IMG/VR virus record: IMGVR_UViG_3300030101_001482
Span: 368 to 29,375 of that record
Length of the DNA: 29,008 bases
From: a virus
Strand: one strand, 5' to 3'
In this document: positions 1 through 29,008 of the stretch, one piece after another
How positions within the stretch are numbered: position 1 is the first letter of the stretch
Layout of the letters: each line of letters starts with the position of its first letter
Position numbers and translations under genes: made by a program
The notes under the pieces: model-generated
What the model was told of the DNA's origin: nothing
Seen by the model: only the letters and a program-made list of their open reading frames with translations
Databases searched by the model: none

Positions 1-3000
1 CTTCTAATGAAATAACAGTATCAGGTTCTGGAAGTGAAAGTGCTTCTGTAACTATATCTTTACCTGATGATGTAACTATAGGTAGAGACTTAGTTGTAAC
101 TAGAAACCTAACAGTAAGTGGTACAACTACTACAATTAACACAGATGAAATAAATATTGCAGACAATCAAATAGTTCTAAATAGTGATTTTACTGGAAGC
201 AATCCAACTGAAAGTGCTGGTATTGAAGTTGAAAGAGGAACACAAACAAACAAATCTTTACAATGGAATGAATCAGATGATAAGTGGACAGTGGGTAGTG
301 AAACTTTTGTAGCAGGTACATTTGAAGGTAACTTAACAGGAACTGTAAATACAGCTACTCAAGGAACTATAGACCACGACAGTCTTGCAAACTTTGTAGC
401 TAATGAACATAAAAACCATGCTACTATTGATATAACAGCAGGAGCTGGTTTGACAGGCGGTGGAAACATTGCAGCAACAAGAACACTTGCTGTTGGAGCA
501 GGTTCAGGAATTGCAGTAAACGCTAATGATGTAGCGGTAGACATAGCAGGAACTACTTTAAATAACTCTCCAGCTACAGGAGATTTAGTTTTAACATCTG
601 ATAGTAGTGATTCAGACGCAATAAAAGCTGTAAGTATATCTGATATAGTTGCTTTAGCACCTCAAGGAGATATTACATCTGTATCTATATCAGCAGGAAC
701 TGGTCTTAGTGGTGGAGGTAGTGCAAACACTGGAGCTTTAAGCACTAGTCTTGCATTAGACTTTAGTGAACTTACAGATATGACAGGAGATATATCTGGT
801 TCAACAGAATTTATTTTACAAAACGGAACTACAGAATCAAGAAAAGCAGCAAGTGAAATAACACTATCTGCATTCAATAATGATTCTAATTTTACATCAA
901 ATGCTGGTACAGTAACATCTGTTACAGCTGGTACTGGTATGACACAGAGTGGAACAAACACTGTAAATCCAACATTGAATGTTATTGCAGGAACTGGTCT
1001 TACAGCAAATGCAAACGACGTAGAAGTAGACATTCAGGGAACTAGCTTAGGTTCAGAAGTTGCAACAGGTGATTTGGTATTATATGCTGACATAAGTGAT
1101 TCTAATAATGTTAAATCTATGGATGTTGGAAGTATCGTAGCACTAGCACCACAAGGAGACATAACCGCAGTTGTTGCAGGTACAAATCTAAGTGGAGGAG
1201 GTAATGGTCCTGGCTCAGTAACACTAAACGTAGATGATGCTTTCTTAGTCAATGACGCTAACGATACTACAACTGGAACAATAACTGCAGCTGGATTCAC
1301 TACAGCAGGTAATTTAACTCTTGGTGGACACGCAGTAAATGATATTGATTTAGGTGGAGAGTTTAATGATGTAGATGACCATTTAATGACTTCTGCAGCT
1401 ATTAATGATAGAATTTTATCCTTTGGATATACAACTAACACAGGTGATATAACAGCGGTAGTTGCTGGTACAGGACTATCAGGAGGTAACACAAGTGGTA
1501 GTGCAACTTTAAATTTAGACATTAATGGTCTAACATTAGCATCAGAAGCAGCTACAGGCGACACTGTTGCTATATACGATACTTCAGCCACAGCTGTTAG
1601 AAAAGTACCTTTGTCAGATGTAATAGCTCTTGCTTCATCAGGAGATATAACAGGAGTAACTGCAGGAGCAGGACTAACAGGTGGAGGTTCATCTGGTGGA
1701 GTAAGTTTAGCAGTTGGTGCTGGTAATCTTATTGATGTACAAGCAAACCAAGTAGACGTAGACTTGAGTGAACTTACAGACGGAACTGCTGACATAGTTG
1801 GTAGTGAAGACGAACTAGTATATTTAGATGACGGTGCTCAAAAGAGAAAACTTGTATCAGAAATAAAATTAAGTCAGTTTAATAATGACTCAGGGTTTAC
1901 TTCTAACGCAGGAGATATTACAAATGTGGTTGCAGGAAGTGGACTATCAGGAGGAAATACGTCTGGAACTGCTACTCTTAATGTAGATATACAAGGAACA
2001 CAATTAGCTGCAGAAATAGCTACTAATGACTTAGTTCTTATAGCAGACACTAGTAATTCTAATGCTATCAGGTCTATACAAGTATCTGACATTGCAGGAC
2101 TTGCACCACAAGGAGATATTACTTCTGTGGTAGCTGGTACTGGATTAACTGGTGGTGGTAGTTCTAGTGATGTTACTTTAAATGTAGCTGCTGGTAACTT
2201 AATAGATGTACAAGCTAATCAGGTTGATGTTGATTTATCTGAGCTTACTACATCTACATCAGACGGAGACGGAGATTTCTTTGCGGTAATAGATGCTTCT
2301 AACAATCAAAAGAAACTTACTAAGGGTAATATAAACATATCTGGTTTCAATAACGACTCAGGGTTTACCAGTAATACTGGTGATATTACAGCTGTTGTAG
2401 CTGGTGATGGTTTAAGTGGAGGTTCTAATAGTGGTTCTGCTACTGTTAGCTTAGATATAACTGGACAGACATTACTAAATGAATCACCTGCTAATGACGA
2501 TGAATTTATTGTATATGATACTAGTGCTAGTGCTTTTAAAAAGGTAGTTGCTAGTGATGTAGTTGGAAGTTCAGGAGATATAACTGCGGTTGTTGCAGGA
2601 AGTGGATTAACTGGAGGTTCAAATTCTGGTTCTGCTACTTTAAATGTGGGAGCTGGTACACTAATAGATGTATCATCAACTGCTGTAAGTGTAGACTTAA
2701 GTGAATTAACCACATCAACATCTAATGCAGACGGAGACCATTTTGTTGTAGTAGATGATTCTAATGCTCAGAAAAAACTTACAAAGGGAAATATTAATAT
2801 ATCAGGATTTAATAATGATTCAGGCTTTACTACAAACACTGGAGACATAACTGCAGTCGTAGCTGGTGACGGTATGACAGGCGGTGCAACATCTGGTAGT
2901 GCTACTGTAAATGTAGTTGGAGGAACAGGTATTACTGCTAATGCTAACGATATAGAAATAAGTATTGATGATGTTACTTTAACAAACTCAGTAACTACTT

Positions 3001-4910
3001 CTGATACTCTTTTAATATATGATGCTAGTGCATCTGCTGTTAAACAAGCAAGTATAGCTGACTTTCCTTTTAGTAATAATAATGGTGATATTACAGGTGT
3101 TACTGCAGGTAGTGGATTAACAGGAGGAGGTAATTCTGGAGGAGTTACTCTTAATCACGAAGATACTTCTTCACAATCATCAGTTAATAATAGTGGCAGA
3201 ACATATATACAAGATATAACTCTTGATACTTTTGGACACGTTACAGCAATAAGTTCTGCAACAGAAACAGTAACAAACACAGATACTAATACTAACCAGC
3301 TTACTACATTTCAAGTAGAAGACGGAGACGGAACTGAAGTTACTATTTCACAAGGTAAAGAACTTAAGTTTAGAGAAGGTGGTGGTATTGATATTAATTT
3401 TACTGACACTTCTACAGGTAGTGACGGAGACCCATTTGATTTAACATTTACAGTTTCATCTCAAACTGATAATAATTTTACAAATGCAGACCATAGTAAG
3501 TTAGATGGTATAGAAGCAGGTGCTACAGCAGACCAGTCAGCGTCTGAGATTAGAACTCTTGTAGGAAATGCTTCTGACTCTAATGTGTTCACTGACGCAG
3601 ACCACTCTAAGCTAGACGGTATTGCATCAGGAGCTACAGCAAACACTGGTGATATTACTAATGTATCTGCAGGTGTAGGACTATCTGGAGGAGGAAGTTC
3701 TGGTTCAGTAACCCTTACCTTAGATATGTCAGAATTAACAGATATGACTGCATCAGTTAATAGTTCACAAGATGAGCTTATTATTTTAGATAATGGTGCA
3801 GATAGAAGAAAATTAATTAGTGAAATACCTTTATCTGCTTTTAACAATGATAGTGGTTTTACAACTACTAATGGTGATATTACAGGTGTAACTGCTGGTA
3901 CTGGTTTATCTGGTGGTGGTACATCTGGTACAGTTACTGTGAGCTTAGGTAATCATAGTGGAGACTTAATAACAAGCGGTACAGTTGCAGCAGCTCGTAT
4001 AGCAGATTTACCTGCATCTAAAATTACTTCAGGTACTATACCTTCTGCTAGATTAGACTCAGACACTGCACACTTATCTGGAACACAAACATTTAGTGGT
4101 GCTAAAACATTTAGCAATATGGCAAGTTTTGCTATGGACGGTAATACTATTTCTGGTATTGACGATTCTGGTGAGTTTACTGATAATGATTCTCACATTA
4201 TGACATCTGCTGCTGTTAATGACAGAATACAAGCTTTTGGTTTTACAACTAATACTGGTACAGTAGATACAAGTGGTAGTCCTGTAGACAATGACTTTGC
4301 TAAGTTTACTGACTCCAATACTATTGAAGGTAGAAGTGCATCTGAAACAAGAAGTGATTTAGGTTTAGGTGATTTAGCAACTGCAGATGATATTGCTGCA
4401 AGTAAAATAGTTAGTGGTACTATTGCAGATGCTAGAATAGCTGCATCTAGTATTACACAACATACAGATTCTAAGTATTTAAGAAGTAATGCTACAGACA
4501 CTGCAAGTGGAGTAATAACTTTTAGTAATACAACAAACTCTACATCTAAAACTACTGGAGCAGTAAAAATAAGTGGTGGTTTAGGTGTAGCCAAAACTCT
4601 TAACGCTGGAGAAGATGTAGTTGCTTTTGCTTCATCAGATAAAAGATTAAAAGATAACTTAAAACCTATTGAAAATTCTTTAGATAAAGTTTCTAAACTA
4701 TCTGGCTATGAATTTGACTGGAACGATAAACAAGAAACATATCAAGGTAAAGATGTAGGTGTAGTAGCACAAGAAGTAGAAGAAGTAATGCCAGAAATAG
4801 TTACTACAAGAGATAATGGATATAAAGCTGTTAAGTATGAAAAGATTGTACCGTTATTAATTGAAGCAATTAAAGAACTTAAAGAAGAAATAGAGGAACT
4901 AAAGAAATGA
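1..4910 (+). CDS. Tail fibre/tail spike with GDIT repeats and C-terminal peptidase S74 chaperone (5' end outside window)
   Basis: The frame is already open at base 3 and runs through to TGA at 4908-4910, so the gene starts upstream of the window; the GTG at 291 is internal. The first residues in the window (TVSGTTTTINTDE, then IADNQIVLNSD) are typical of marine phage fibres. The body is built from about 14 glycine-rich units of the type GDITxVxAGxGLxGG, each followed by an SELTD/RKLxSEI/FNNDSGFT block, which suggests a long beta-structured shaft. The last ~95 residues (from about 4630) carry SDKRLKDN and VGVVAQEVEEVMPE and end in a Glu/Lys coiled coil: the peptidase S74 intramolecular chaperone, which trimerises the fibre and cleaves itself off at the Ser of the SDxR motif. 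It overlaps the next gene by ATGA. Family assignment is firm; the receptor is unknown. Confidence 0.9.
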   Translation, partial: SNEITVSGSGSESASVTISLPDDVTIGRDLVVTRNLTVSGTTTTINTDEINIADNQIVLNSDFTGSNPTESAGIEVERGTQTNKSLQWNESDDKWTVGSETFVAGTFEGNLTGTVNTATQGTIDHDSLANFVANEHKNHATIDITAGAGLTGGGNIAATRTLAVGAGSGIAVNANDVAVDIAGTTLNNSPATGDLVLTSDSSDSDAIKAVSISDIVALAPQGDITSVSISAGTGLSGGGSANTGALSTSLALDFSELTDMTGDISGSTEFILQNGTTESRKAASEITLSAFNNDSNFTSNAGTVTSVTAGTGMTQSGTNTVNPTLNVIAGTGLTANANDVEVDIQGTSLGSEVATGDLVLYADISDSNNVKSMDVGSIVALAPQGDITAVVAGTNLSGGGNGPGSVTLNVDDAFLVNDANDTTTGTITAAGFTTAGNLTLGGHAVNDIDLGGEFNDVDDHLMTSAAINDRILSFGYTTNTGDITAVVAGTGLSGGNTSGSATLNLDINGLTLASEAATGDTVAIYDTSATAVRKVPLSDVIALASSGDITGVTAGAGLTGGGSSGGVSLAVGAGNLIDVQANQVDVDLSELTDGTADIVGSEDELVYLDDGAQKRKLVSEIKLSQFNNDSGFTSNAGDITNVVAGSGLSGGNTSGTATLNVDIQGTQLAAEIATNDLVLIADTSNSNAIRSIQVSDIAGLAPQGDITSVVAGTGLTGGGSSSDVTLNVAAGNLIDVQANQVDVDLSELTTSTSDGDGDFFAVIDASNNQKKLTKGNINISGFNNDSGFTSNTGDITAVVAGDGLSGGSNSGSATVSLDITGQTLLNESPANDDEFIVYDTSASAFKKVVASDVVGSSGDITAVVAGSGLTGGSNSGSATLNVGAGTLIDVSSTAVSVDLSELTTSTSNADGDHFVVVDDSNAQKKLTKGNINISGFNNDSGFTTNTGDITAVVAGDGMTGGATSGSATVNVVGGTGITANANDIEISIDDVTLTNSVTTSDTLLIYDASASAVKQASIADFPFSNNNGDITGVTAGSGLTGGGNSGGVTLNHEDTSSQSSVNNSGRTYIQDITLDTFGHVTAISSATETVTNTDTNTNQLTTFQVEDGDGTEVTISQGKELKFREGGGIDINFTDTSTGSDGDPFDLTFTVSSQTDNNFTNADHSKLDGIEAGATADQSASEIRTLVGNASDSNVFTDADHSKLDGIASGATANTGDITNVSAGVGLSGGGSSGSVTLTLDMSELTDMTASVNSSQDELIILDNGADRRKLISEIPLSAFNNDSGFTTTNGDITGVTAGTGLSGGGTSGTVTVSLGNHSGDLITSGTVAAARIADLPASKITSGTIPSARLDSDTAHLSGTQTFSGAKTFSNMASFAMDGNTISGIDDSGEFTDNDSHIMTSAAVNDRIQAFGFTTNTGTVDTSGSPVDNDFAKFTDSNTIEGRSASETRSDLGLGDLATADDIAASKIVSGTIADARIAASSITQHTDSKYLRSNATDTASGVITFSNTTNSTSKTTGAVKISGGLGVAKTLNAGEDVVAFASSDKRLKDNLKPIENSLDKVSKLSGYEFDWNDKQETYQGKDVGVVAQEVEEVMPEIVTTRDNGYKAVKYEKIVPLLIEAIKELKEEIEELKK

Positions 4911-25114: not shown

Positions 25115-26884
25115 CTATAAATTGTCATAATTTATATCAGTCCTAATTGGAACTCCTATGTCTCTATGTATTGTTTGTTCGTTAGTACCTCGACCATAAT
25201 ACATAAACGACACCTGATGATTCTTGAAGTATCCATCACTTGCATTGTCTATTGTAGCCCAATATCGTCCAATCGACCTTGTATATTCAAATAGATTGGT
25301 TGCGACATTAAACTCTACGACTTGCTTTACATCTGCGTAAAGATTTCTAATATGACTATCTTCTCGTTCTGTAAAGTGCTTCTTTCGTCCTGCAAAGTAT
25401 TCTTGCGTCTCTTTTGGTATATTGAATATTCTCATCATATTCGACCAACCTAAGACATGTGGACGATTTCCGTGAAGTAAGTCGTAAAGATGGTGGACTA
25501 ATGGTTGAACAAGATAAGGTTTGTCCTTCTTCGGAAGTTTCATAAAACGACGAATCAGTTCGCTATCCTTGTAATATTGTTCAATGTTAGTACTCTCAGA
25601 ATAGTCGGAGTACCTATTGTATAGTTTACTTACTGTCGTATATATTTTGTCTCCTCCAAGAATAGACTTGAAAAGAGATGAGTGTCGTAGTTCTCTTTGG
25701 CTATAAGGTTTATCTCGCAATTCGTCTGCGACCTTATTACCAATTTCAAAACAAACATCTACGACATTCGTCCAAAATATAGTCCAGTGTTTTATCTTGT
25801 CGGCATTCAATGTACCACCATGATATCGTATTTCTAGTCCCTGATTTGCTTGAAAATGACAATGCAAATTCAGTCCATGATATCTTTTCTCGTTATACTT
25901 CTCATTTGAGTAGTAGCCATTGTCGTACCATACATCAATAAAGTCGTCTCTACCTTCAACATACTTAAATGTAGATAGTCGTTGACTCACTTTTCTACAC
26001 CATTGAGAGGTTGCTCTCGACGGAGGACACCATGAATAGACATGAGGTTCAATTAGTTTCGTCATCATTGATAAGACGCAGAAGTGAATGTAGTCGTAAT
26101 CTCTTACATCAATATGCAAATGTAATCCACATTTTCTACTGACATAAGCGTCGCAACTATTCACTAATGTATTACAAACTAATTTAGTATCCTCATAGAG
26201 TCTGTCGCCCCTTCTTGGACGCATAACTACTTCATATCCGTAGGGGTGAGATTCGTCTGTGATACTACCATCATAGACTACTGATAAATCTGTTTCCAGT
26301 TTCATGTTTTGTCTAAAAGAGTGGCGAATTTCTTCTCTAATATCCTCAGTCGTAGGCTCGTTGTCCCATTCGTCTTGGTGAAAGTTAGTCTCTATCTCTA
26401 ATCCGACATATCGTTTTGACTTAATTTCGTTGAATGTGTCTTTGTCGTATCCATTGTCTAATGGGTTTACAAAGTCTGTATTTGTCTCAACAAAATTATT
26501 AGTATAGACTTCCCAATCGGGACGATTGTTTGACGCGTCTTCGTTATAACAATGTTCACAAAGACATTCGTCGTTGCTATTGTAATAGGCGTCGCTATCA
26601 CTCATGTCTGTATCGCAATGTTCACAATGTCTAATCTCGTCGTCATAACAACCTTGACATCTGTACATTCCGTCGCAATCTGAGTAATAACTATCTGAAT
26701 TTCCTATTGCGTCTCCACAACTATCGCAGTTAGTGTAGTTATTGTCGTAGCAAACCTGACAGATATTATCTCCCATCGGGTCTTGTAATTCATCTCCGAC
26801 TTCTATCTCACAACCACAATCATTACAATCGATAGTCTCTACATCATAATCGTCGTTAGTATGTTGGTATCTTTCAGGAGGCAT
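25115..26884 (-). CDS. Zinc-ribbon/amidoligase fusion protein
   Basis: 589 residues. Residues ~17-113 hold a string of CxxC/HC knuckles (C20/C23, C42/C45, C53/C56, C76/C79, C87/C90, C107/C112), about three treble-clef or LIM-like zinc fingers. Then the putative amidoligase fold (PF12224-type, glutamine-synthetase-like): GLEIET 161-166, GYEVVMRP 216-223, CGLHLHIDV 252-260, YHGLNLHCHF 335-344 and LEIRYHGGTLN 350-360. These are the expected metal/ATP and substrate residues (E163, E165, E218, H255, H257, E351, R353). Such enzymes join a carboxylate to an amine using ATP. Overlap with the amidotransferase gene by 11 bases suggests that glutamine-derived ammonia or a shared substrate links them. 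The product is unknown; zinc fingers may recruit a nucleic acid or protein. Confidence 0.8.
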   Translation of the reverse strand: MPPERYQHTNDDYDVETIDCNDCGCEIEVGDELQDPMGDNICQVCYDNNYTNCDSCGDAIGNSDSYYSDCDGMYRCQGCYDDEIRHCEHCDTDMSDSDAYYNSNDECLCEHCYNEDASNNRPDWEVYTNNFVETNTDFVNPLDNGYDKDTFNEIKSKRYVGLEIETNFHQDEWDNEPTTEDIREEIRHSFRQNMKLETDLSVVYDGSITDESHPYGYEVVMRPRRGDRLYEDTKLVCNTLVNSCDAYVSRKCGLHLHIDVRDYDYIHFCVLSMMTKLIEPHVYSWCPPSRATSQWCRKVSQRLSTFKYVEGRDDFIDVWYDNGYYSNEKYNEKRYHGLNLHCHFQANQGLEIRYHGGTLNADKIKHWTIFWTNVVDVCFEIGNKVADELRDKPYSQRELRHSSLFKSILGGDKIYTTVSKLYNRYSDYSESTNIEQYYKDSELIRRFMKLPKKDKPYLVQPLVHHLYDLLHGNRPHVLGWSNMMRIFNIPKETQEYFAGRKKHFTEREDSHIRNLYADVKQVVEFNVATNLFEYTRSIGRYWATIDNASDGYFKNHQVSFMYYGRGTNEQTIHRDIGVPIRTDINYDNL

Positions 26885-27917
26885 TTGTTTCTACCAACTC
26901 ATCATCGTCAGTAGCCTCCCATTGTTGTCGTTGTAGTTGAGATTCAGCCCATTCCTGTTCTTCTCTCTCATACCACATTTCCGACATTACACTCTCCGAC
27001 ACTACATAACCATCGACACTACACATCCATTCGTCTTCCGACTCATCATAGTACCATTGTTCTGGTTTTGTGTCGTAGAGTTCTGCTAAGTGATTCATCT
27101 CATCCTCGACATAATTCTGAGGTATGATTGGTTCCCACTCATCATCGTCCCAACCATAACTATTCATACCATAGTTATATGTACGACTATTATATTCGAA
27201 TTGAATAGCAGAGTAATTAGTTTGTACATCAGTGAAAAGCGTCGTATCGAATGCATATAATGTATTCTTATGCAGACTAACTATTTCTGTCTGAATGTTA
27301 ACTTCGTCTAATGCGTCCTCAATGAAGCCTTCTTCACTTGCGTAAAACAATGTTTTAAGCGAAGGGACATAAGCGACATAAAGTGGACGATTACTCTCTC
27401 TACAAAGATATAATATATTAGGGTTATCTTTGACGAATGACAATGCAAAGTCGCTGTCAAAATGTTTGACTGCTTCTTGTATATTGTCGTTATCATTGAT
27501 AGCCTTGAAGATTAACTGACTATCGACTGGACATTGTTTGCCTAGTTTAGTCGTCATCTCCTCTATATTATAGACACAACCATTGTGTGCTCCGACAACA
27601 TTGCCGACTCTAAATGGGTGTGCATTTGATTTGACTATTGCTCCTTCTGTCGCAAAGCGTGTATGTCCAAGCAATATATTATTACCAGTCTGTAATGATT
27701 TAATTGACTGATTGAATTGCTTTGTGTCTACAAACTTGCTAGACGGCAATAGTGATTTATGTATTCTAGTTTCAGTCCCGACTTGTGCAATACCAGACGA
27801 ATGAGCCCCACGACTCTCGCTATCTATTGCCATTTGTCTTATCACCTTTTTGACAACCTTGCGTTGTCGCTTAGTGTAAGTAGTCGGAGACTTTGCTATA
27901 CCATATATACCACACAT
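26874..27917 (-). CDS. Class II glutamine amidotransferase (Ntn hydrolase)
   Basis: 347 residues, AAAAGGAG eight bases before ATG 27917. Cys2 becomes the N-terminal nucleophile after Met removal (MCGIYGIAKS). Other hallmarks: SRGAHSSGIA (35-44), GHTRFATEG (84-92), HPFRVGNVVGAHNG (100-113, with Asn112-Gly113 oxyanion hole) and Asp132. It hydrolyses glutamine to glutamate plus ammonia. After the ~210-residue GATase domain comes a Trp/Tyr-rich acidic tail (residues ~225-347: WDDDEWEPIIPQ, YYDESEDEWMCSVDGY), which I do not recognise and which carries no synthase domain such as the GlmS isomerase. The overlapping amidoligase is the likely partner. Confidence 0.88.
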   Translation of the reverse strand: MCGIYGIAKSPTTYTKRQRKVVKKVIRQMAIDSESRGAHSSGIAQVGTETRIHKSLLPSSKFVDTKQFNQSIKSLQTGNNILLGHTRFATEGAIVKSNAHPFRVGNVVGAHNGCVYNIEEMTTKLGKQCPVDSQLIFKAINDNDNIQEAVKHFDSDFALSFVKDNPNILYLCRESNRPLYVAYVPSLKTLFYASEEGFIEDALDEVNIQTEIVSLHKNTLYAFDTTLFTDVQTNYSAIQFEYNSRTYNYGMNSYGWDDDEWEPIIPQNYVEDEMNHLAELYDTKPEQWYYDESEDEWMCSVDGYVVSESVMSEMWYEREEQEWAESQLQRQQWEATDDDELVETNAS

Positions 27918-28891: not shown

Positions 28892-29008
28892 GCTATCGAG
28901 TTTCCGACGCGGGGAAATCGCCATCTAGATAATATAAATAGGACGCATAGTCTAGCTTCCGACGCGGGGAAGTCCGTCAGGCATAGTCGAGCTCCGTCGG
29001 AGGGGAAC
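28892..29008. repeat. GC-rich repeats and CATCTAG/CATAGTC elements at the right edge
   Basis: TTCCGACGCGGGGAA occurs twice exactly (28902-28916 and 28957-28971), a related CTCCGTCGGAGGGGAA at 28992-29007 (containing the palindrome CTCCGTCGGAG). Each copy is preceded by a variant of GCATAGTCTAGC: GCTATCGAG (28892), GCATAGTCTAGC (28945-28956), GCATAGTCGAGC (28981-28992). CGCCATCTAGA sits at 28919-28929. The array runs off the window. GC content is far above the rest of the window. No gene is seen here; possibly control region, origin or terminal sequence. Confidence 0.6.

Follow-up and report, generated by a model that had tools for sequence, protein, structure and literature searches.

Overlapping phage genes for a class II glutamine amidotransferase and a zinc-module amidoligase, with a gamma-glutamyl cyclotransferase gene elsewhere in the genome

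Gene cores that pair a class II glutamine amidotransferase (GATase) with an amidoligase have been described repeatedly in phages, including phiEco32, LUZ24/PaP3, PA11, RIO-1, and the OM43 phages. In the cassette typified by phiEco32, LUZ24/PaP3, and PA11, a class II GATase and an Amidoligase_2 protein, usually together with a gamma-glutamyl cyclotransferase (GGACT), are encoded beside replication genes; phiEco32/LUZ24-type cassettes additionally contain genes for a PF14395 COOH-NH2 ligase and an ATP-grasp ligase. The cassette is assigned, as a prediction, to a modification of peptidoglycan that blocks superinfection (PMC5498523, PMC11945000; discussed in PMC10580990). Its label of peptidoglycan modifier dates back to about 2009 and, as far as we found, has prediction alone behind it: our literature search returned no biochemical test of any phage amidoligase, and the published functions that we found are predictions. 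GatD and MurT, a class I GATase and a Mur ligase with folds unrelated to those of the phage pair, offer a functional parallel. They are reported to amidate peptidoglycan through a GATase-fed ligase and, like the phage pair, are two co-transcribed proteins, a glutaminase and an ATP-dependent ligase (PMC3267633).

The stretch of DNA analyzed here (the window) comprises 29,008 nucleotides, positions 368 to 29,375 of the 44,836-base virus record IMGVR_UViG_3300030101_001482 (G000:C1), and a run of N lies just past its end. Its minus strand encodes a class II (Ntn-hydrolase) GATase of 347 amino acids (26874..27917), identified by its match to PF13522, its residues, and its model, and, on the same three grounds with PF12224, a glutamine-synthetase-like COOH-NH2 ligase of the Amidoligase_2 family with 589 amino acids (25115..26884). 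Both reading frames lie where an earlier note, made from the letters of the window, had placed them, and, as it had reported, the ligase gene starts before the GATase gene stops, so that the two share 11 bases (26874..26884, from the ORF coordinates). The overlap, which is the same or similar in nearly all relatives, suggests translational coupling. The surrounding minus-strand block encodes a DnaB helicase, a Cas4-like exonuclease, and a small resolvase-like protein, and it is plausible, given these replication genes, that the pair is expressed early. The plus strand carries packaging and virion genes, among them that of a 1635-amino-acid tail-fibre protein (window 3-4910) with a C-terminal intramolecular chaperone domain (Peptidase_S74, 6.8e-17).

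Within 6 kb of the pair, the conserved neighbouring genes encode replication, packaging, and small unknown proteins; we looked among them for a target gene and rejected this possibility, as no conserved neighbour was specifically tied to the pair. One gene that recurs at these loci, beyond the window (G000:C1:31211-31531), encodes an IrrE/SprT-like small metallopeptidase; it is kept in 44 of the 45 loci compared, with a match to PF06114 slightly below cut-off (E=0.00044). No host can be named, because only five weak matches (28-33% identity) came up when the GATase profile was run against 84,980 genome species. The terminase was similarly uninformative as to host: over most of its length it is no more than about 24-26% identical to its counterparts in named phages.

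The GATase matches PF13522 (GATase_6) above the gathering score (E=5.1e-15). It begins with MCGI, and Cys2 is invariant in all aligned relatives, as expected for an N-terminal cysteine nucleophile after removal of the methionine. Across the 33 to 37 relatives aligned, R87, N98-A99-H100-P101, H111-N112-G113, and D132 are likewise invariant, so the set that had been listed as complete (Cys2, Asn112-Gly113, Asp132) is both present and conserved; the glutamine-binding and oxyanion residues R87, N112, G113, and D132 are invariant in distant phages too. Roles were assigned to the residues of this protein and of the ligase from family knowledge and alignment. The catalytic domain occupies residues 1 to about 230 and is followed by a poorly conserved, variable extension (231-347). 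The description of this protein as a GATase without a synthase domain holds at the family level, since family searches matched only GATase families. Its AlphaFold2 model (pLDDT 81) has the Ntn-hydrolase fold and superimposes on PurF with a Z-score of 22.6 and an rmsd of 2.4 over 200 residues, on GlmS with a Z-score of 21.5, and on EgtC, an Ntn hydrolase of the ergothioneine pathway, with a Z-score of 19.4; it is thus nearer PurF/GlmS (Z 21-23) than EgtC, by a small margin.

The ligase matches PF12224 (Amidoligase_2) with E=2.4e-19 and 70.6 bits against a cut-off of 22, and contains all of the conserved ExE, D-S, E, HxH, and ExR residues of that family. The motifs that had been reported as intact, GLEIET (E163, E165), HLH (H255, H257), and ExRxHxGT (E351, R353, H355, G357, T358), are present with their key residues invariant, and the full set of invariant positions comprises E163, E165, D205, E218, H255, H257, E351, R353, and H355. 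We take the ExE, HxH, and ExR motifs to resemble the metal and ATP residues of glutamine synthetase. A search by sequence returned no solved homologues apart from weak LIM matches. The model of the ligase (pLDDT 78) matches YbdK with a Z-score of 13.2 and an rmsd of 4.5 over 251 residues, and also glutamine synthetases, plant glutamate-cysteine ligase, and GmaS with Z-scores of about 11-13; only enzymes of the glutamine synthetase fold class are among the structural matches listed. These matches span residues 121-510 and delimit a glutamine-synthetase-like catalytic domain at residues 155-510 (25355..26422, minus strand). The phage ligase shares this fold with glutamine synthetase, YbdK, and glutamate-cysteine ligase at about 10% identity and differs from them in its added zinc modules. 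As modelled, the folds of GATase and ligase fit glutamine-fed formation of an amide bond, and they accommodate ammonia transfer and gamma-glutamyl hydrolysis alike.

The added N-terminal region, which the earlier note had overlooked, consists of three tandem LIM-like zinc-ribbon modules (ligase residues 20-112; 26549..26827, minus strand) defined by six CxxC motifs at a regular spacing of 18-19 residues within modules and 7 between them. Ten of the 12 cysteines are invariant across the lineage and the other two, C20 and C53, nearly so. A profile of these modules built from the lineage matched solved LIM-domain structures weakly (best E=0.0028), and Pfam LIM (PF00412), which does not match the window ligase, passes its cut-off in a distant relative (L148). 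Modules of this kind also occur in the majority of the distant ligases of the zinc type, whose genes are in the opposite order, whereas no CxxC motif was found in the other named phage amidoligases examined. We found no published description of zinc-bearing amidoligases among the papers searched.

IMG/VR contains 47 loci with a GATase closely related to that of the window phage. The ligase gene directly follows the GATase gene in all 41 that reach past it; the remaining six end within the GATase gene and were left out of this count. The conserved pairing that the earlier note had named as a check is therefore seen in every complete locus, which excludes chance. Identity to relatives falls to about 47-51% for the GATase and about 31-35% for the ligase with the catalytic residues unchanged in the aligned set, so that the loss of these residues in close homologues that had been named as grounds for refutation was not seen. 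We considered chance or decaying reading frames and rejected them on the full conservation of the pair and on dN/dS values of 0.12-0.34 between close relatives, which indicate purifying selection. Between close relatives, the ligase diverges much faster than the terminase: in the L016 record, the terminase (G000:C1:34139-35722) is 100% and the ligase 80% identical to that of the window phage, as if the ligase were under host-facing pressure or had been exchanged by recombination. Separately, a frameshift, real or a sequencing error, splits the ligase near its C-terminus in one contig (L045:8289-8407, the contig of L013).

A search with the ligase profile identified eight further loci (L148-L155; 24-31% identity), and in all eight a class II GATase with a Met-Cys-Gly start is encoded directly downstream of the ligase, in reversed order relative to the window phage. 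Five of these records have no similarity to the terminase of the window phage and three only weak similarity. As the proteins of L150 and L151 are identical, the swapped-order pairs represent seven distinct cases. That the two genes also stay paired when their order is swapped argues more strongly than anything else that GATase and ligase work together. Combined with the conserved pairing, residues, and folds, it makes a functional, amide-bond-forming pair well supported; this much of the earlier proposal stands. Two of the swapped-order records contain additional genes of these families. L153 (3886-8618) has two ligase-GATase pairs in tandem with zinc motifs only in the second ligase, and L149 (G033:C1:18277-18633) has, besides the paired GATase, another GATase_6 domain with a stronger match, within a 515-amino-acid frame that is perhaps a synthase in its own right.

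Outside the window, and hence absent from the earlier note, is a plus-strand gene for a GGACT/AIG2-like gamma-glutamyl cyclotransferase (G000:C1:33766-34167, extrapolated window coordinates 33399-33800; PF06094, 1.7e-14). It lies directly before the large terminase gene, about 5.5 kb from the pair and in another transcription unit, and its product retains a conserved YGTLR motif and a conserved Glu that is presumably catalytic. Of the 32 records of the lineage, 31 contain the gene, the exception being a contig that begins 2.6 kb before the GATase gene, and the designation of the locus as a two-gene system is for this reason probably wrong. Within the lineage of the window phage alone, such co-presence could reflect common descent. 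In unrelated phages, too, GGACT recurs together with the pair or the ligase (in the cassettes of PaP3, phiM6, Bas93, and UFV-P2, and in Alcaligenes phage QDWS535, Bacillus phage 035JT001, and Arthrobacter phage Edmundo), which makes a functional link to the pair more likely. Searches for it gave nothing in the majority of the distant zinc-ligase records or in MEP401, PA11, and Phriendly, and it is thus not obligatory everywhere. The earlier statement that no neighbour indicates the target is correct inside the window; beyond it, GGACT points to gamma-glutamyl chemistry.

Against the described systems, the locus shares its three families and their catalytic residues with the phiEco32/LUZ24/PaP3/PA11-type cassette. 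Ten lineage records gave no match to the PF14395 ligase, with PaP3 and PA11 as positive controls, and none to the ATP-grasp (R2K-like) ligase with PaP3 Orf43 as the query, a single sequence that could miss a distant relative; PA11 and phiM6 were positive controls for the latter search. With neither ligase detectable, we do not file the module as a full phiEco32/LUZ24-type cassette. Genes of that cassette are clustered and the amidoligases examined are without zinc modules, whereas the window phage has a dispersed GGACT gene and a zinc-module ligase. The module nevertheless probably works like the core of that cassette. Another such system is the set encoded by genes 96-98 of Arthrobacter phage Edmundo (cluster AL, Laroyevirus), which likewise comprises GGACT, Amidoligase_2, and class II GATase, has no PF14395 match, and lies near helicase and Cas4 exonuclease genes; unlike in the window phage, it is a compact operon of three consecutive genes with the ligase, free of zinc modules, ahead of the GATase. 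An AIG2-like protein and an amidoligase had already been listed for cluster AL phages (PMC5513430). In OM43 phage MEP401 an amidoligase also adjoins a class II GATase (gp05-gp06; PMC10580990), with the differences that family scores are weak, the ligase precedes the GATase, and no GGACT was found. The pair is therefore the core of a cassette known in many phages, the three-family set itself occurring in cluster AL, and the novelty of the system as a whole, which had been proposed, is not borne out. What is new is the branch of zinc-module ligases, the pairs with swapped gene order within it, and the location of the GGACT gene apart from the pair.

We think it reasonably probable that GATase, amidoligase, and GGACT constitute a three-protein module for amide-bond chemistry, a judgement that applies to the enzymatic reading and not to any one target. 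Beyond the families, folds, residues, gene overlap, and co-occurrence established here, the reaction steps are read from the families. The GATase, with Cys2 as the nucleophile, would hydrolyse glutamine or a gamma-glutamyl amide and pass ammonia to the ligase, which would use ATP to activate a carboxylate, by way of an acyl phosphate, before the amide bond is formed. GGACT would take off gamma-glutamyl groups as 5-oxoproline and so edit or recycle the product of the module. Its role in the infected cell would be a remodelling of the host that serves, for instance, to keep other phages out. Reduced to three proteins and to a single ligase family, where there are otherwise two or three, it offers a simple setting for a search for the substrate.

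Several targets can be weighed. Amidation of peptidoglycan stem-peptide precursors, or an unusual peptide link on them, by which the infected cell would resist other phages or lysins, is quite possible, though we put it somewhat below an even chance. The core genes (GATase, Amidoligase_2, and GGACT) are those of the cassette so read in PMC5498523 and PMC11945000 and discussed in PMC10580990, and MurT-GatD provides an analogy in GATase-fed peptidoglycan amidation (PMC3267633); the other two ligases predicted in the cassette pathway were not found in the ten lineage records, however, and the zinc modules are unexpected and fit peptidoglycan poorly. These modules point rather to a macromolecule, perhaps a protein, as the target. 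LIM domains typically bind proteins, and gamma-glutamyl-epsilon-lysine is among the known substrates of GGACT. LIM-like modules could accordingly bring the ligase into contact with a host or phage protein that is amidated or gamma-glutamylated, GGACT reversing gamma-glutamyl-lysine links, an explanation that we rate as rather unlikely but worth pursuing. It would account for the retention of the three modules, with their largely invariant cysteines, in the majority of the distant swapped-order relatives as well, and the lower conservation of the ligase than of the terminase fits a host-facing protein; yet the modules may only serve to bind the GATase or to make the fold more stable. We consider doubtful the more specific proposal that the amidoligases with zinc modules are a distinct branch, widespread among phages, which, with the GATase and in some lineages GGACT, reversibly modifies a host protein and not the cell wall. 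If true, the branch would write and erase amide or gamma-glutamyl marks, and phages would thus have a system for reversible protein modification. Both the zinc modules and the opposite-order pairs in other phages speak directly for considering proteins, alongside the cell wall, as targets to be tested.

Ammonia transfer would be beside the point if the ligase gamma-glutamylated an amine and an EgtC-like GATase and GGACT later removed the group from the resulting small metabolite. GCL, EgtA, GmaS, and PuuA gamma-glutamylate amines, and the GGACT family cleaves gamma-glutamyl amides. The matches of the ligase model to YbdK, plant glutamate-cysteine ligase, and GmaS, the match of the GATase model to EgtC, and two phages of Gram-positive hosts that have an amidoligase and GGACT with no GATase annotated nearby are consistent with such a pathway; we nonetheless find it unlikely, as no transport, carrier, or other biosynthetic gene was seen near the pair and the GATase ranks, if by a small margin, nearer the ammonia-transferring PurF and GlmS. 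Modification of a DNA base or nucleotide of the phage genome is highly improbable. The location of the pair within the replication block would suit it, but no nucleotide-modifying enzyme family was matched among the subset of ORFs scanned, and the literature on cassette phages, in the portions consulted, mentions no linked base modification; the nucleotide named in the earlier note among possible targets thus gains no positive support.

At the intergenic end of the window, we also observed two 24-base direct repeats (28896-28919 and 28951-28974) that are 88% identical and spaced 55 bases apart, with a chance expectation of none. They have in common the exact 15-mer TTCCGACGCGGGGAA, and related pieces of the TCCGTCGGAG type lie close to them.
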